DNA from: Microcaldota archaeon
Lineage (GTDB): Archaea > Micrarchaeota > Micrarchaeia > Micrarchaeales > Micrarchaeaceae
DNA length: 64,000 nt
Assembly: GCA_021817565.1 (NCBI GenBank)
Contig: JAKAUP010000003.1
Span: 207,026-271,025, forward strand
Direction: 5' to 3'
The position numbers and the translations under genes were made by a program. Below, in pieces: positions 42,353 to 64,000 of this stretch (positions are counted from its first letter, which is position 1; every line of letters starts with the position of its first letter). Below the pieces are notes generated by a model. The model had not been told where the DNA came from. It saw nothing but the letters and a program-made list of their open reading frames with translations, and searched no databases.

Positions 42353-42616
42353 TTGGCAGATAAGCGGGAAGCTAGGGGTTTTCCGTACCGCATACCCCCT
42401 TTATGGCGGGCGAATGCCAGACGAGTACATATGTGCATGTATGCGCCCTCAACGAAACGAAGATGTTTTGCCCCGGACGATATGCGTGTATGTGAATCAG
42501 GCCAGGCCGGAAGGAGCAACCTTAAACGTACTACGTGTATGCTTTCGGGATACGGGACTGAGCGGAGTTGCGATCAGCGCATAGATGTACGTATGTGCAG
42601 ATCTGGTTTCTGCCAT
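42353..42616 (+). ncRNA. Signal recognition particle (7S) RNA
   Basis: Helix 8 core CAGGCCAGGCCGGAAGGAGCAACC; terminal pairing ggcaga (42355-42360)/tctgcc (42609-42614); archaeal-type 5' domain. Confidence 0.88.
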
Positions 42617-57851: not shown

Positions 57852-60800
57852 TCACCGCTTCAATTTTCTGCCCTTCCTGAAAGCAAGATAGAAAACAACC
57901 GCTGCGGCTACAAGTATTATCACTGACGCCGCTATTATGTACTGGTAGTATCCGGGCTTTTGAATCTCTGATTGGGGTATGGTTGTAGTTTGTATTGTGG
58001 AAGTGGTTGAATGGTTTGATGCATTTGTTGAGGCAGGAGATTTGTACAGTACCGCAAATAGGGTCTCGGGCTTTGTTTTGAAGTTTAACGTGCATGCGCT
58101 TGGGTTGGTTCCAAAATCCGGTATGTTATTCCAAGAACCGTTGGTGTAATAATAAGGGCCGAAACTTCCGACAGTTGCGCTGCAGCTATACGGTTCGGTT
58201 ATGTTTATTGCCGTGCTGTTAAGAATCTGGCCTGAAAGGTAAGTGGTGAAGGCAAACGAACCGTTTGAGAAACCATTTGGGACAGTTACATTAGTTTGTT
58301 TGATGATTACGCTTAGGTTTCCGCCTTCTTTTGAATTGAGTTTGATTGATACCTTGCCGCTGTATATGTAAAATAGTTTTTCGGCATTGGGCTGAAGTTT
58401 TATGGTTTCGTTAATGCTGTTTGAGGATTGGGAGGGAGTTGTGGAGTTTGTCTTGGTTGTTGTATTTGTTATATTTTTCGTCGTTGTAGTGTTTTTGTGT
58501 ACGCTTGGGGAAACTGAAAATATCGCTTCCATTTCGGGTGCGGATGCTTGATACTTTGTATCGCACGGTATCCCTACCCCCACCCCATATATGTCATCCT
58601 GATAAGTGTAATTATAATTGCCGATGGAGAGTGCGCATACTACTGAGATGTTTATTGAGGGAGACAGCGATGAGATTGTGTATGGGAGCTGGTTTTGGTA
58701 GTAAGTTGAACTTCCTGAGTTGGTGTATAATGTGTATATAGGCACGCTTGATTGGAGTGTTGAATTTATGTTGTCTGTTATGGTAAAGTAATAATAGGTT
58801 GGACTGGCCGTACCTCCTCCGCCGCTTGGTTTGTTTTCTACATTTATCCTTATTCCGTTGTTTATGGCATTGAACTGGTATTGAGGGGATACACCGTTGT
58901 CATACAGTATTGCGTTGAATGAGAAGGTGCCTATCGAAGACGGGGTAAATATGAAGTTTGCTGTGCTCCCCTTTTGTATCCCGCTTATAGTATTCTCGGT
59001 AGTGCCGTTGTTTGCATATACCAGGTTTGCGGTGAAAGGACCTATGCCATTGTATACATCTAAGGAGATTGTTGCGCTTTCCCCTGTGTATATTGTGTTT
59101 GGAGTTGCGCTGATTTGGGCGGTTGGCGTATTTCCTACAAGTATCTGGCCGGCAAGCGTATTTGATACCCCTAACGAATCGAGCAGTGACGCGCTTATGT
59201 TCAAATAACCGTACGTCCCTTGTGGTATGGTAAATAGGAGTGTGTTTGAGGTTGATGCAACACCGCTGAATGAACTTTCCGATATCGCCGTATTTCCTGC
59301 ATTCACAATTATATTTCCTGAATAAGGCGGCTTCCCGCCCTTCCATGAATACGCTATTGTTTCTGGCTGGTTTGCCGCATCTACCGTTGTATTGGATATG
59401 GTAAGGTAATTACCTACGAGCGCCGGGTAAACTGTAAGTGCTGCTCCAACACTGTTGAATCCGGTAGAGATATCATTGGCATAGAAGCTTGAGTATGTGC
59501 CTGCGGATAAGGAGAATGCGTCGAAGGTATATGTTGCTGAACCTGTTCCAGTAACCAGCACGTTGCCTAGTATCGGGTAGTCTATGGCGCAGGTGGACTG
59601 AGTGCCAACGCACTGCGCAACTACGTTTGCCTGCTCGTTTGAATCTATCTCTGAAGGAGATATTGTTATGGTTGGAAGCGTATTCTCGACTGACGACATT
59701 TCTATGTTTGGCATTAGACCGTTCTGTGGATATGTTCTTGCGCGCGCCCAGTTGAATGATGCGTCCCATGGATATGCGGAACCTGCAGTTGACAACAGCC
59801 CAAGATAGAGATGTGGCGAACTGCTGAGCGGGTTTACGTTGTATGTGCCGCCATATCCTCCAACTGTCGAGTATAACTCAGGGGATATATAACCAGACCA
59901 TGATGTTGCGGTGTTCCCGTAATATGTGGCTGACGCGTAGTGCCATAACGAAGAATCAGTCCCTGCGTTATTGACGGTTGATTGCGAACCGTCGGATATA
60001 TAATCCTGCAAGAAGTAGCTTGCAAATGAGCCCATATCAACACTGATCCCGTTCTGAGATGAGCTGTATGGTCCTGACAGTATACCGATCTGGCCGTTGT
60101 CGGCGCCCGTGGTTGCGGCGTTTGGAGATATCTTGCTGTTGCTCTCTGCTATTATAGGTTCGTTGTTTAGATAAGAAGTGGTGTATATCCAGCCCGGAGC
60201 GTTTGCGCCGCTTATGTTCAAGGCAGTTATTGTCTTTGTGCTTGTCGGGGTCGGCCATTGTATTTGGACATGTGAGAGCAGATTTCCTTGAGCGTTAAAG
60301 TCGGATATAGGTGTATTTCCATTTATATAAAGAGCAAATACGTTTGCGCCGTCGTCGTATTCTGCGTAGGTGGGGCTGAGCTGGGGGGCTTCTCCTATTC
60401 CTGTTGTAACTGAGTTTGAAAGAATGTTTATGTTTCCAGGGACAAAGCCTAGGTATATCGTATTGGTTGAATTAAGTATCTTTGCCCAAGTAATTATATT
60501 ACCCGAAGCGTTGCGTTCTATCCATGCCGGTATGGTTGTTCCGTTGGCGTAGAAATATTCGAAGTCTGCTGTCGAATTGGAATATGTAATGTAGTTCCCA
60601 TATGTTGTGTTTGATTCAGATAAGTTTACCATCTGCTGCACATATTTTGATGGGAAATGTCCCCAAGGAGTTACGGATATGGCGGCTATGTTTTCCACCT
60701 CGTTCGGGATTTTTGACGGTAAAGGCAGAACTGTCGCGGTTGCCTGCGCCACGATATTTGCAGTTATGTCATCGAGATAAAATGTGTGTGAACCCAAACT

Positions 60801-62039
60801 TAGTCCGTTGAATACGTAACTGATGGTGCCTGTGCCTGTTGCTACTGCTGTGCCCAAGGTTGGGTAGTCGATTGCGCAGGTGTCTGTGCTCTCTAGACAT
60901 TTGCCTGTGACAGTCACTGTCTGGCCATGCAGAGATACTTTTGGAGTTACGTTTATGTTCTCTACAGTTGGCGTGCTAAAGGTTATGCTGGGCATTACGC
61001 CGTTGGGCGGATAAGCACGAGTGCGTACCCATTGGAATCTTAGGGCAGGGGCAACTCCTGATAAAGCGGTATCCGCATAATACGAAAGAGTGAGGTATGT
61101 GGTATCTGTAGGAACATCAGTTGTCGTAGTTGTTGAAGAATACCCATTATACCAAAATCCTGCTTCCCCGCTAAGCCATTCCAGCCCCCATATGTGGAAG
61201 TTGCCATCGACAGGGTTGACTCCGGTTGGGAGCGTGTAAGAGGTTCCAGTCTGGACAGACCCAACAATCTCGGTTGTTGAGCTTTCAGTACCTTGCCAGG
61301 AAACATGGTCTTGGCTTGTGCCACTTGGCAGGAGGTATGTCTGCGATGGAACCAATCCGAATCCGAGTCTGTATCCCCCCACGCTTACACTATTCCCGTT
61401 CATATACGCTTCCGCTATAATCGGCTGCGACGCAATGGCTGAATTTGATGCCAGATAGACATAATCACCATCTGTCTCCGGAACAGAGAGCGATAGACCA
61501 TTGTTTATTGTGTAAGTTCCCCCGGACACACCGGCAACCCATTTTGGATTTAGAGATGTGCCTGCGAAATTGTCATAGAAGTTGAACAGGCTTGAGCCGT
61601 CGTCGTATTTCGCATAGGTTGGGCTTAATTGCGGGGCTTCTCCTATGCCTGACGTTCCGCTCCCGCTAAGCAGGTTAGTGCTGTTTAAAGCGAATCCCAG
61701 ATAGAATGAGGTTATTGTATTGCCTATCTTTACCCACGTTACGAGTTTGCCTGATGAGTTGCTCTCTATCCATGCTGGTATGATTGTTCCGTTCTGATAG
61801 AAATACTCGAAGTTAGCCGTCGAACCGGAATATGTGATGTATTTTCCATATACGGAGTTTGATTCTGAGAGGTTTATCATCTGCTGCACATATTTTGAAT
61901 TGACTGAGGACCACCCAGGCGTGTTTATCCCCATATATCCGATTATACCAGTTGGAAGGGTTGGGGCCGAGGCTGATGCTGTATTGATAAAGAGCAGTAT
62001 AAAAATAGCAAGCAGTGTGGCTTTTTGCGTGATTGGCAT
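57852..62039 (-). CDS. Large surface/adhesin-like protein with tandem DUF2341-type units and C-terminal TM anchor
   Basis: Signal peptide; duplicated SKYVQQM.NLSES...YDDG blocks; C-terminal YYQYIIAASVIILVAAAVVFYLAFRKGRKLKR. Confidence 0.85.
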   Translation of the reverse strand: MPITQKATLLAIFILLFINTASASAPTLPTGIIGYMGINTPGWSSVNSKYVQQMINLSESNSVYGKYITYSGSTANFEYFYQNGTIIPAWIESNSSGKLVTWVKIGNTITSFYLGFALNSTNLLSGSGTSGIGEAPQLSPTYAKYDDGSSLFNFYDNFAGTSLNPKWVAGVSGGTYTINNGLSLSVPETDGDYVYLASNSAIASQPIIAEAYMNGNSVSVGGYRLGFGLVPSQTYLLPSGTSQDHVSWQGTESSTTEIVGSVQTGTSYTLPTGVNPVDGNFHIWGLEWLSGEAGFWYNGYSSTTTTTDVPTDTTYLTLSYYADTALSGVAPALRFQWVRTRAYPPNGVMPSITFSTPTVENINVTPKVSLHGQTVTVTGKCLESTDTCAIDYPTLGTAVATGTGTISYVFNGLSLGSHTFYLDDITANIVAQATATVLPLPSKIPNEVENIAAISVTPWGHFPSKYVQQMVNLSESNTTYGNYITYSNSTADFEYFYANGTTIPAWIERNASGNIITWAKILNSTNTIYLGFVPGNINILSNSVTTGIGEAPQLSPTYAEYDDGANVFALYINGNTPISDFNAQGNLLSHVQIQWPTPTSTKTITALNISGANAPGWIYTTSYLNNEPIIAESNSKISPNAATTGADNGQIGILSGPYSSSQNGISVDMGSFASYFLQDYISDGSQSTVNNAGTDSSLWHYASATYYGNTATSWSGYISPELYSTVGGYGGTYNVNPLSSSPHLYLGLLSTAGSAYPWDASFNWARARTYPQNGLMPNIEMSSVENTLPTITISPSEIDSNEQANVVAQCVGTQSTCAIDYPILGNVLVTGTGSATYTFDAFSLSAGTYSSFYANDISTGFNSVGAALTVYPALVGNYLTISNTTVDAANQPETIAYSWKGGKPPYSGNIIVNAGNTAISESSFSGVASTSNTLLFTIPQGTYGYLNISASLLDSLGVSNTLAGQILVGNTPTAQISATPNTIYTGESATISLDVYNGIGPFTANLVYANNGTTENTISGIQKGSTANFIFTPSSIGTFSFNAILYDNGVSPQYQFNAINNGIRINVENKPSGGGGTASPTYYYFTITDNINSTLQSSVPIYTLYTNSGSSTYYQNQLPYTISSLSPSINISVVCALSIGNYNYTYQDDIYGVGVGIPCDTKYQASAPEMEAIFSVSPSVHKNTTTTKNITNTTTKTNSTTPSQSSNSINETIKLQPNAEKLFYIYSGKVSIKLNSKEGGNLSVIIKQTNVTVPNGFSNGSFAFTTYLSGQILNSTAINITEPYSCSATVGSFGPYYYTNGSWNNIPDFGTNPSACTLNFKTKPETLFAVLYKSPASTNASNHSTTSTIQTTTIPQSEIQKPGYYQYIIAASVIILVAAAVVFYLAFRKGRKLKR
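59470..60690 (-). repeat. Internal repeat unit 2 of the surface protein (approximate bounds)
   Basis: SKYVQQMVNLSESNTTYGNYITYSNSTADFEYFYANGTTIPAWIE...; TCAIDYPILGN block also duplicated. Confidence 0.75.
60730..61940 (-). repeat. Internal repeat unit 1 of the surface protein (approximate bounds)
   Basis: ctgctgcacatattttga at 61881 recurs at 60633, an offset of 1248 bp (416 codons). Confidence 0.75.
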
Positions 62040-62341: not shown

Positions 62342-62857
62342 CTAAAGCCTTGATTCCTTGAGCTCATCTATCGCTTCCTGCTTGGATGCGATACGCTCGA
62401 ACTTCATGAACTTTCCCTTCTCCAGCTCCTTGTAGTGCTCGAAGAAGTGCTTAAGCTTTTCCTGTAACGGCTTCGGTATGCTTGCCGCATCTGTGTAGAT
62501 TGAGGAATACGGATCAACCTTCTCCACAGGAACCGCTATTATCTTGTTGTCCGAACCTTCCTCGTCGCTCATTATAGCCTTTCCTATAGGCCTGCATTTT
62601 ATGACCGTTCCAGGCATTACTTTCTTGCTTGCTATGACGAGCACGTCGAGCGGGTCGTTATCCTTGCCCTTTGTACCCATTACAAAACCGTAGTTTGTCG
62701 GGTAAACCATAGACGTGAATAGGAATCGGTCCGCGACTATTGCCTCTATGTCCTCTTTGTATTCATATTTTATGTCGCTGCCTTCCGCTATCTCTACAAA
62801 CGCGTAGAAGGTTTCTGGATAATCCTTCGTCTGTTCATCCATCTTCATAAAAATCAC
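62342..62857 (-). CDS. ppa: Inorganic pyrophosphatase
   Basis: YPTNYGFVMGTKGKDNDPLDVLVIASKKVMPGTVIKCRPIG. Confidence 0.95.
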   Translation of the reverse strand: MIFMKMDEQTKDYPETFYAFVEIAEGSDIKYEYKEDIEAIVADRFLFTSMVYPTNYGFVMGTKGKDNDPLDVLVIASKKVMPGTVIKCRPIGKAIMSDEEGSDNKIIAVPVEKVDPYSSIYTDAASIPKPLQEKLKHFFEHYKELEKGKFMKFERIASKQEAIDELKESRL

Positions 62858-62926
62858 AGAAAAGTTTAGCCTCGAGAATTTATGCGCTACCTAAATGCAC
62901 ACGTTAATCTTAACTTTTTCAAGTTT

Positions 62927-63360
62927 TGAGGTGATCTATCCGCAGGTTCCCCTACGGATACCTTGTTACGCCTTAGCCCTCCTCACAGAATCTCAGTTCG
63001 AAAATTTCAGAGAAATTTCCTCACTGAAACCCCACTTGGGTGACTTGGCGGGCAGTGTGTGCAAGGAGCAGGGACAGATTCACCGCTCGATAGTGACAAG
63101 CGATTACTAGGGATTCCAGCTTCATGAGGGTGAGTTGCAACCCTCAATCCGAACTTGGATCGGTTTTAGGGGATTTGCTTTGCCTTTCGGCATTGCGTCC
63201 AATTGTGCCGACCTTTGTATGCCGCGTGTAGCCCAGGAGATTTGGGGCATACTGACATGTCGTCGCCTCCTCCTTCCTCCTCTTTAGACAGAGGCGGTCC
63301 TAACAGAGTGCCTGGCTTATCGCTAAACCAGTAGCAACTGTCAGCAGAGGTCTCGCTCGT
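62927..63360 (-). rRNA. 16S rRNA, 3' exon
   Basis: Minus-strand ACGAGCGAGACC ... GGATAGATCACCTCA 3' tail; + strand shows 1492R-like taccttgttacgcc. Confidence 0.95.
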
Positions 63361-63883
63361 TACCGGGTAGGTGAATAATACTCCGCATTCTTAAGCTATG
63401 TTCTCTTATAAACGCGATAAAACTTTCCGAGTTCCTTATCCTCAATTTCGTCATATTTGAGGTATGAAACCCTAAGCGCTCCATAAGCATTATGTTCCTT
63501 TCGCCTGGACTATACATGTATATTCCCTTCTCGTCTACTCCTCCGCATGAATCGAAGATGCCTGCAAGGTAATTTGCCGTGTAGGCGTTCGGATGCTTGA
63601 GTATGTGTTCTGAACGGTCCAGAGACCTGTCCATGAACTTCCTGATCTTCGAGTTGTAGAATTTAATAGTGTATAGGGTAGGCTTATGGCTCTTGCTTAC
63701 GAGCAGTTTGCTGGGCTCTATGCCCATCCCTATCGCTATCTTTATGAAGCGTTCCAGGAATGATTCGTCGTTGGACGACATCTCTATCGAGGAATTATCG
63801 CTGCATTTGCTGCAGCTATGCACTCCAAGCATATAGCATATATCGGGATTTAGCTTAATTTTCTGCGTCATTGCATCACTCAC
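63341..63883 (-). CDS. LAGLIDADG homing-endonuclease-like ORF in the 16S intron (GTG start)
   Basis: CYMLGVHSCSKC and NYLAGIFDSCGGV repeats; fills the intron. Confidence 0.8.
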   Translation of the reverse strand: MSDAMTQKIKLNPDICYMLGVHSCSKCSDNSSIEMSSNDESFLERFIKIAIGMGIEPSKLLVSKSHKPTLYTIKFYNSKIRKFMDRSLDRSEHILKHPNAYTANYLAGIFDSCGGVDEKGIYMYSPGERNIMLMERLGFHTSNMTKLRIRNSESFIAFIREHSLRMRSIIHLPGNERDLC

Positions 63884-63888
63884 TTACT
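63361..63888 (-). other. 16S rRNA archaeal (BHB-type) intron, 528 nt
   Basis: Excision joins TTAAGTCCGGTA to ACGAGCGAGACC; central CCGG/CCGG helix, TA|A bulges, inner GTAAGTGAGT/ATTCACCTAC. Confidence 0.88.
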
Positions 63889-64000
63889 TACCGGACTTAA
63901 CCGGACAGTTCACACCACGAGCTGACGGCCGCCATGCACCACCTCTCGGCTCGTCAGGTAAGATCTTTAGTCTGACCTTCATCCTGCCGTCGCCCCTGGT
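63889..64000 (-). rRNA. 16S rRNA, 5' exon (continues beyond window)
   Basis: Sense CCGTCAGCTCGTGGTGTGAACTGTCCGGTTAAGTCCGGTA. Confidence 0.95.

Follow-up and report, generated by a model that had tools for sequence, protein, structure and literature searches.

A predicted BHB-type intron after position 1101 of a Micrarchaeota 16S rRNA gene and its probably domesticated, apparently catalytically dead LAGLIDADG protein

The window (the whole stretch of DNA that was analysed, 64,000 nucleotides long) ends inside a 16S rRNA gene. Its minus strand from 64000 to 62926 corresponds to the 3' portion of archaeal 16S rRNA (positions 929-1478 of Rfam RF01959, 445 bits, E = 2e-128), and only the 3' 550 positions of the gene are assembled because the contig stops at base 64000. 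This part of the gene is interrupted by a 528-nt insert that is filled by an open reading frame. The features at the locus are as follows (the arrow marks the predicted cut):

63889-64000, minus strand: 16S rRNA exon 1, its 3' end only (RF01959 alignment; the contig ends at 64000)
63877-63894, minus strand: 5' half of the predicted BHB, with CCGG at 63891-63894, the bulge UA↓A at 63888-63890 and the inner-helix strand at 63877-63887 (covariation, 25 distinct junctions)
63361-63888, minus strand: predicted BHB intron, 528 nt, after E. coli 16S position 1101 (alignment and junction analysis)
63341-63883, minus strand: frame of 180 aa for an apparently catalytically dead LAGLIDADG protein (frame, family alignment, predicted fold and motif comparison)
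63360-63377, minus strand: 3' half of the predicted BHB, with the inner-helix strand at 63367-63377, CCGG at 63363-63366 and the bulge UA↓A at 63360-63362
62926-63360, minus strand: 16S rRNA exon 2, from E. coli position 1102 to the 3' end (RF01959 alignment)

Directly downstream of the 16S gene lies an inorganic pyrophosphatase gene (62342-62857, minus strand). No 23S gene is found nearby, and the 16S and 23S genes appear to be unlinked in the relatives examined, too. Further along the same strand (57852-62039), a frame of 1395 aa, which begins like a signal sequence, contains internal repeats and has a membrane segment at its C-terminus, probably encodes a surface protein. For the SRP RNA of the window (42355-42614, plus strand), the best-scoring model is that of the bacterial large SRP and not the archaeal one.

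The RF01959 alignment contains one large insert, inside ...GUUAAGuCCGGUAACGAGCG, at the very site where the original prediction had placed an intron, and both the coordinates 63361-63888 and the junction proved exact to the base. Exon 1 ends in ...GTCCGGTA (63889; also given as ...GTTAAGTCCGGTA), and exon 2 starts with ACGAGCG (63360). The insertion, which had been expected near E. coli 1101/1102, falls after 16S position 1101 when the sequence is matched locally, with no gaps, to the E. coli primer site CAACGAGCG (1100-1108). The site is not among the 13 archaeal 16S intron sites catalogued by Jay and Inskeep in 2015 (PMC4496867), the nearest of which is 1093; this known site was rejected because the 3' boundary has only CCGGTAA in common with exon 1, which places the insertion after 1101. 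No other 16S copy, such as the intron-free second gene considered in the original prediction, was found in the source genome, whose assembled 16S sequence covers the 3' 550 positions. Since the intron splits the 1100R site, the predicted difficulty for 16S primer surveys is plausible. Two other origins of the insert were rejected. A group I or group II intron is contradicted by the lack of any match to a ribozyme core in the insert at the Rfam gathering thresholds and by the open frame, which leaves no room for one. An assembly artefact is contradicted by the occurrence of the same insert in independent genomes, including those of Ca. Micrarchaeum A_DKE and G011 (taken as Mia14).

The recognisable BHB junction described in the original prediction is upheld by covariation over 25 distinct junctions from 30 homologous introns at 1101. 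The elements attributed to it are all present, i.e., a CCGGTAA direct repeat at both borders, a CCGG/CCGG central helix, TA↓A (as sequence) in both bulges of 3 nt each, and an inner helix with one mismatch. Of the 275 inner-helix positions in the 25 junctions, 258 are paired, whereas 5' and 3' strands taken from different introns pair at 188 +/- 8 (none of 5000 trials was as high). Every junction has CCGG (once CCAG) on the 5' side, facing C[C/T]GG across two 3-nt bulges, and the central helix covaries (CCGG/CCGG, CCGG/CTGG, CCAG/CTGG). Many positions of the BHB helices change on both sides, which amounts to strong covariation. The bulges themselves vary, with UAU as the 5' bulge in two introns and AAA as the 3' bulge in 16 of the 25 junctions, and they thereby restrict where the cuts can lie. 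Cuts at xA↓x and xA↓A would nonetheless restore a sequence of the type CCGG(U/C)AACGAGCG; indeed, relatives with unequal bulges (5' UAA or UAU, 3' AAA) still restore CCGGUAACGAGCG, as expected if the joined sequence is under selection. The outer helix is weak. In the minimum free energy fold of the single sequence, the exon-1 CCGG pairs locally, in the hairpin of mature 16S rRNA, in preference to the 4-bp central helix; as the same CCGG is used by the mature helix and by the BHB, the two structures are mutually exclusive and the precursor must switch between them.

The source genome encodes the proteins that would be needed to process such a junction, namely EndA (PF01974 twice in one frame of 387 aa) and RtcB (PF01139, E = 1e-166). 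The related ARMAN-2 has an EndA of the epsilon-2 type with broad specificity, the structure of which has been solved in complex with BHB RNA (PMC12397907). The 1101 intron is also located in the only 16S gene of two completely sequenced relatives, A_DKE (G032, NZ_CP060530) and G011, and is thus presumably removed by splicing. These data support the assignment of the insert to the archaeal BHB-type 16S introns, with an insertion at 1101/1102; EndA, the tRNA-splicing endonuclease, would cut UA↓A in both bulges, and RtcB would join the 16S exons.

The open frame, which was missed in the original prediction, is a more important feature than the intron itself. It has a GTG start, with an ATG at 63877. 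When read from the unspliced transcript, the frame crosses the 3' splice site, reaches its stop within exon 2 and ends in ...LPGNERDLC; a circularised intron would give 175 aa ending in ...LPGK. Pfam LAGLIDADG_3 gives only a sub-threshold match to the protein. The AF2 model made from the family alignment (pLDDT 90.9) nevertheless presents a LAGLIDADG fold with two motif helices, and its best solved matches in Foldseek are I-DmoI structures (probability 1.00, TM about 0.6), followed by inteins, I-Tsp061I and, weakly, the LAGLIDADG domain of WhiA (3hyj). The family profile also matches the LAGLIDADG segment of PI-PfuI (1dq3, E = 0.045), in which the motif reads FIAGLFDAEGHV, compared with YxAGxFDxxGG in the 1101 family. 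In the window protein, the position of the catalytic, metal-binding acid is occupied by Ser in motif 1 and by Cys in motif 2. Among 122 family rows, an acid is found at this position in 1 of 119 for motif 1 and in 4 of 121 for motif 2, and no row has both; the structural Asp two residues before the catalytic position of motif 2 is kept in 120 of 121. I-DmoI, a homing endonuclease from a Desulfurococcus rRNA intron, is likewise a two-motif monomer of similar size, whereas it has a catalytic acid in each motif; nearly all members of the 1101 family lack both acids, and no member has the pair. The window protein consists of a single two-motif core of 178 aa, in which neither Pfam nor the AF2 model reveals an additional domain or helix-turn-helix, and all groups of the family have a basic median pI of 9.3-9.5. 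With the acids missing, neither cleavage nor homing is likely, and the protein appears to be a catalytically dead member of the LAGLIDADG proteins.

Homologues were found in 123 of the 165 genomes of the order (46 of the 52 good ones) and in 220 of 302 genomes of the phylum; in the sequence records the group is named Micrarchaeota, with Ca. Micrarchaeum A_DKE and acid-mine genomes among its members. Ribosomal protein S7 occurs in 152 of the same 165 genomes and canonical LAGLIDADG_1 in only 4. Among 60 relatives counted by hand, a homologue is present in 47 of the 48 genomes with an assembled 16S gene versus 5 of the 12 without one. The gaps in the distribution are mostly assembly gaps, and the 47 of 48 do not fit the sporadic distribution typical of homing endonucleases. 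The exception, G016, has an assembled intronless 16S gene and no homologue, which indicates that the gene can be lost. Genomes have a single copy, with the exception of a few bins such as G080 (two near-identical contigs), G132 (a frame broken by Ns) and G050. In the last, contigs C18 and C19 (L027) contain two 16S genes, with the protein in an intron versus downstream, and the bin probably combines two organisms.

The place of the gene varies much more than its presence. When 103 loci of the order were scored automatically, 34 were inside the 16S gene, with all breakpoints at 1101, 51 were downstream of it on the same strand (at 0.12 to 3.0 kb; one of these, in G115, is really an intron copy on a contig broken upstream), 2 were convergent, just past the 16S end, and 16 were on pieces without a 16S gene. 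The frame is present in all 1101 introns examined, and such introns were found in two families of the order and at five loci outside it (L165, L166, L178, L179 and L184, out of 20 examined); at another outside locus, L170, the gene lies just downstream of the 16S gene. In families f3, f4, f7 and f9, the gene is elsewhere, and the 16S gene runs through 1101 uninterrupted in those of their genomes in which the 829-1467 part is assembled. Some free copies adjoin a weakly Cgi121-like gene and the gene for MetRS, or that for ThrRS or NAD kinase. TATA-like boxes are mildly enriched upstream of free copies (46% vs. 28% in shuffles). No BHB was seen to be retained at a free copy, and of 16S remnants that could point to a duplication route, only one short piece was found near such a copy (L058). 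The possibility that free copies are introns of a linked 23S gene was rejected, as no LSU match was obtained in 19 loci. It should also be mentioned that at five loci from distant families (L167, L172, L175, L177 and L183), the free gene directly follows a gene of approx. 150 aa, a possible functional partner, whose product in L167 gives a weak Cgi121 match.

The frames are intact in all 103 loci (141-184 aa, a few being truncated by contig ends). Pairwise dN/dS ranges from 0 to 0.35 and is mostly 0.05-0.18, both for copies in introns and for free ones; the pair that gives the highest value has very few changes. A recent pseudogene is rejected by the intact frames and these ratios, which indicate that the 1101 family is under purifying selection. 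In the protein tree, family f2 (support 99), family f1 (90) and the remaining families (100) form separate groups, and protein distances correlate with 16S tree distances (r = 0.83; none of 999 permutations was as high, the highest reaching 0.11), which is not the horizontal spread expected of a homing endonuclease. On the protein tree, at least 14 switches between the intron and the free state are required, 5 of them imposed by strong branches; the 16S tree requires 10, of which 4 are forced. The gene thus follows vertical descent, and its place changes. The trees are unrooted for this character, and a change from intron to free copy is the simpler direction given the shared 1101 site in distant families.

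We consider it probable, although some doubt is warranted, that the locus is a BHB intron, presumably spliced by EndA and RtcB, with a domesticated, catalytically dead and vertically inherited LAGLIDADG protein that acts in the maturation of the small subunit or in the control of rRNA. In the past, the intron was probably mobile, as a homing element at 1101. Both metal-binding acids would have been lost in an ancestor of the sampled lineages, and the protein would then have been kept by purifying selection; in several lineages, the gene has probably left the intron and now lies a short way downstream of a 16S gene that lacks the intron, or at another place. The protein probably binds RNA or DNA and serves the maturation of rRNA or of the ribosome. 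Its lasting tie to the 16S gene, its basic charge and its descent from a binder of the 1101 region suggest that it still recognises this region, either as RNA while the 30S subunit matures or as rDNA, and it might therein bind the ancestral recognition sequence in the 1090-1110 region of the 16S. A role in RNA or ribosome maturation is ranked somewhat above DNA regulation; the features that would link the protein to ribosome maturation are its location, its basic pI (~9.4) and its neighbours in distant families. However, the linkage to the 16S gene need not signal a function and could be left over from the gene's origin.

Among the alternatives, it is conceivable, though we think it unlikely, that the dead protein acts on transcription rather than on ribosome assembly, by binding to promoters or to rDNA, its old target. 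There is a precedent in WhiA/DUF199, a domesticated LAGLIDADG transcription factor (PMC3781837, PMC11701221) and likewise a conserved host gene without nuclease function, whose LAGLIDADG domain (3hyj) is a weak fold match. However, WhiA is bacterial, is unlinked to rRNA genes or introns and has an extra C-terminal helix-turn-helix, whereas the window protein has neither this nor any other added domain and is a two-motif core throughout. 

LAGLIDADG maturases such as I-AniI are known, and the protein might accordingly be needed only for the folding or splicing of its own intron. Such a maturase would explain why the frame occurs in all 1101 introns examined, and a chaperone could help where the mature exon-1 hairpin competes with the central helix of the BHB. 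Nonetheless, this reading is improbable, because most homologues belong to genomes with an intronless 16S gene and are still under selection, so that intron splicing cannot be their present function; a role confined to splicing would not account for the homologues that persist alongside an intronless 16S gene. An ordinary selfish BHB intron, in which the frame is a recent relic of a homing endonuclease decaying at the end of its life cycle, would also account for the fold, for the location in an rRNA intron and for the missing catalytic acids, which are likewise absent from degenerate homing genes. Yet the intact frames in all 103 loci, dN/dS well below 1, the near-universal single copy with vertical descent, the absence of the motif acids throughout a phylum-wide sample and the retention of the gene where no intron exists largely refute it, and we regard it as very unlikely. 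Slightly less credible still is a fragmented 16S rRNA, in which EndA cuts the BHB and the exons stay separate, as the weak outer helix might suggest, since RtcB is present in the genome and relatives restore CCGGUAACGAGCG despite unequal bulges, as would be expected under selection on the joined sequence.

Apart from its cargo, which we take to be domesticated, the intron is of a known kind. The 16S introns of Pyrobaculum, Thermoproteus and Caldivirga likewise have BHB junctions, a LAGLIDADG frame inside and presumed removal by EndA and RtcB (PMC4496867); compared with these catalogued introns, the 1101 site is not on the list, and the protein appears to be dead, vertically inherited and near-universal in its lineage. 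The group I introns described in rRNA genes of Micrarchaeota by Nawrocki et al. in 2018 (PMC6125680) come from the same phylum, and some have LAGLIDADG genes, but they are self-splicing ribozymes at SSU site 1498 and at LSU sites, whereas no ribozyme core was found in the 1101 intron. Introns in the 16S genes of Mia14 (genome of 952,257 bp) and ARMAN-2 were reported by Golyshina et al. in 2017, in a text that, in the portion available, gives no site, motif or encoded protein (PMC5498576); G011, taken as Mia14, has the same 1101 intron and the same protein family as the window. A search of the open-access literature on Micrarchaeota homing endonucleases and LAGLIDADG proteins yielded no description of the 1101 family. 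The novelty would lie in the domesticated cargo. To our knowledge, domesticated homing endonucleases are few (WhiA, HO), and we know of none that is a near-universal gene of an archaeal phylum or that is kept inside an rRNA intron.

If the preferred explanation of a domesticated protein is correct, it explains the persistence of an apparently selfish 16S intron, provides Micrarchaeota with a lineage-specific candidate ribosome or rRNA factor, and yields at least 4-5 natural replicates in which a gene has moved between an intron and a site adjacent to it; surveys relying on the 1100R site will also miss part of the Micrarchaeota group. A bolder and only tentative proposal is that a homing endonuclease has become, in much of the phylum, a core factor of small-subunit biogenesis that binds the 1100 region of the 16S; in many species, the gene would lie inside the 16S gene and the excised intron would serve as the messenger, so that supply of the factor would be tied to rRNA synthesis.

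Insertions at other positions of the 16S gene were also noted in relatives. In L184 (genome G262), the gene is in eight pieces, with about seven insertions, one of which is the 1101 intron with the dead LAGLIDADG protein. Other insertions lie near HMM position 138 (L022/L074, genome G036), near 866 (L088 and L103) and near 1321 (L080 and L051). The insertion of G036 near 138 overlaps a canonical LAGLIDADG_1 match and is thus a useful contrast to the dead 1101 family.
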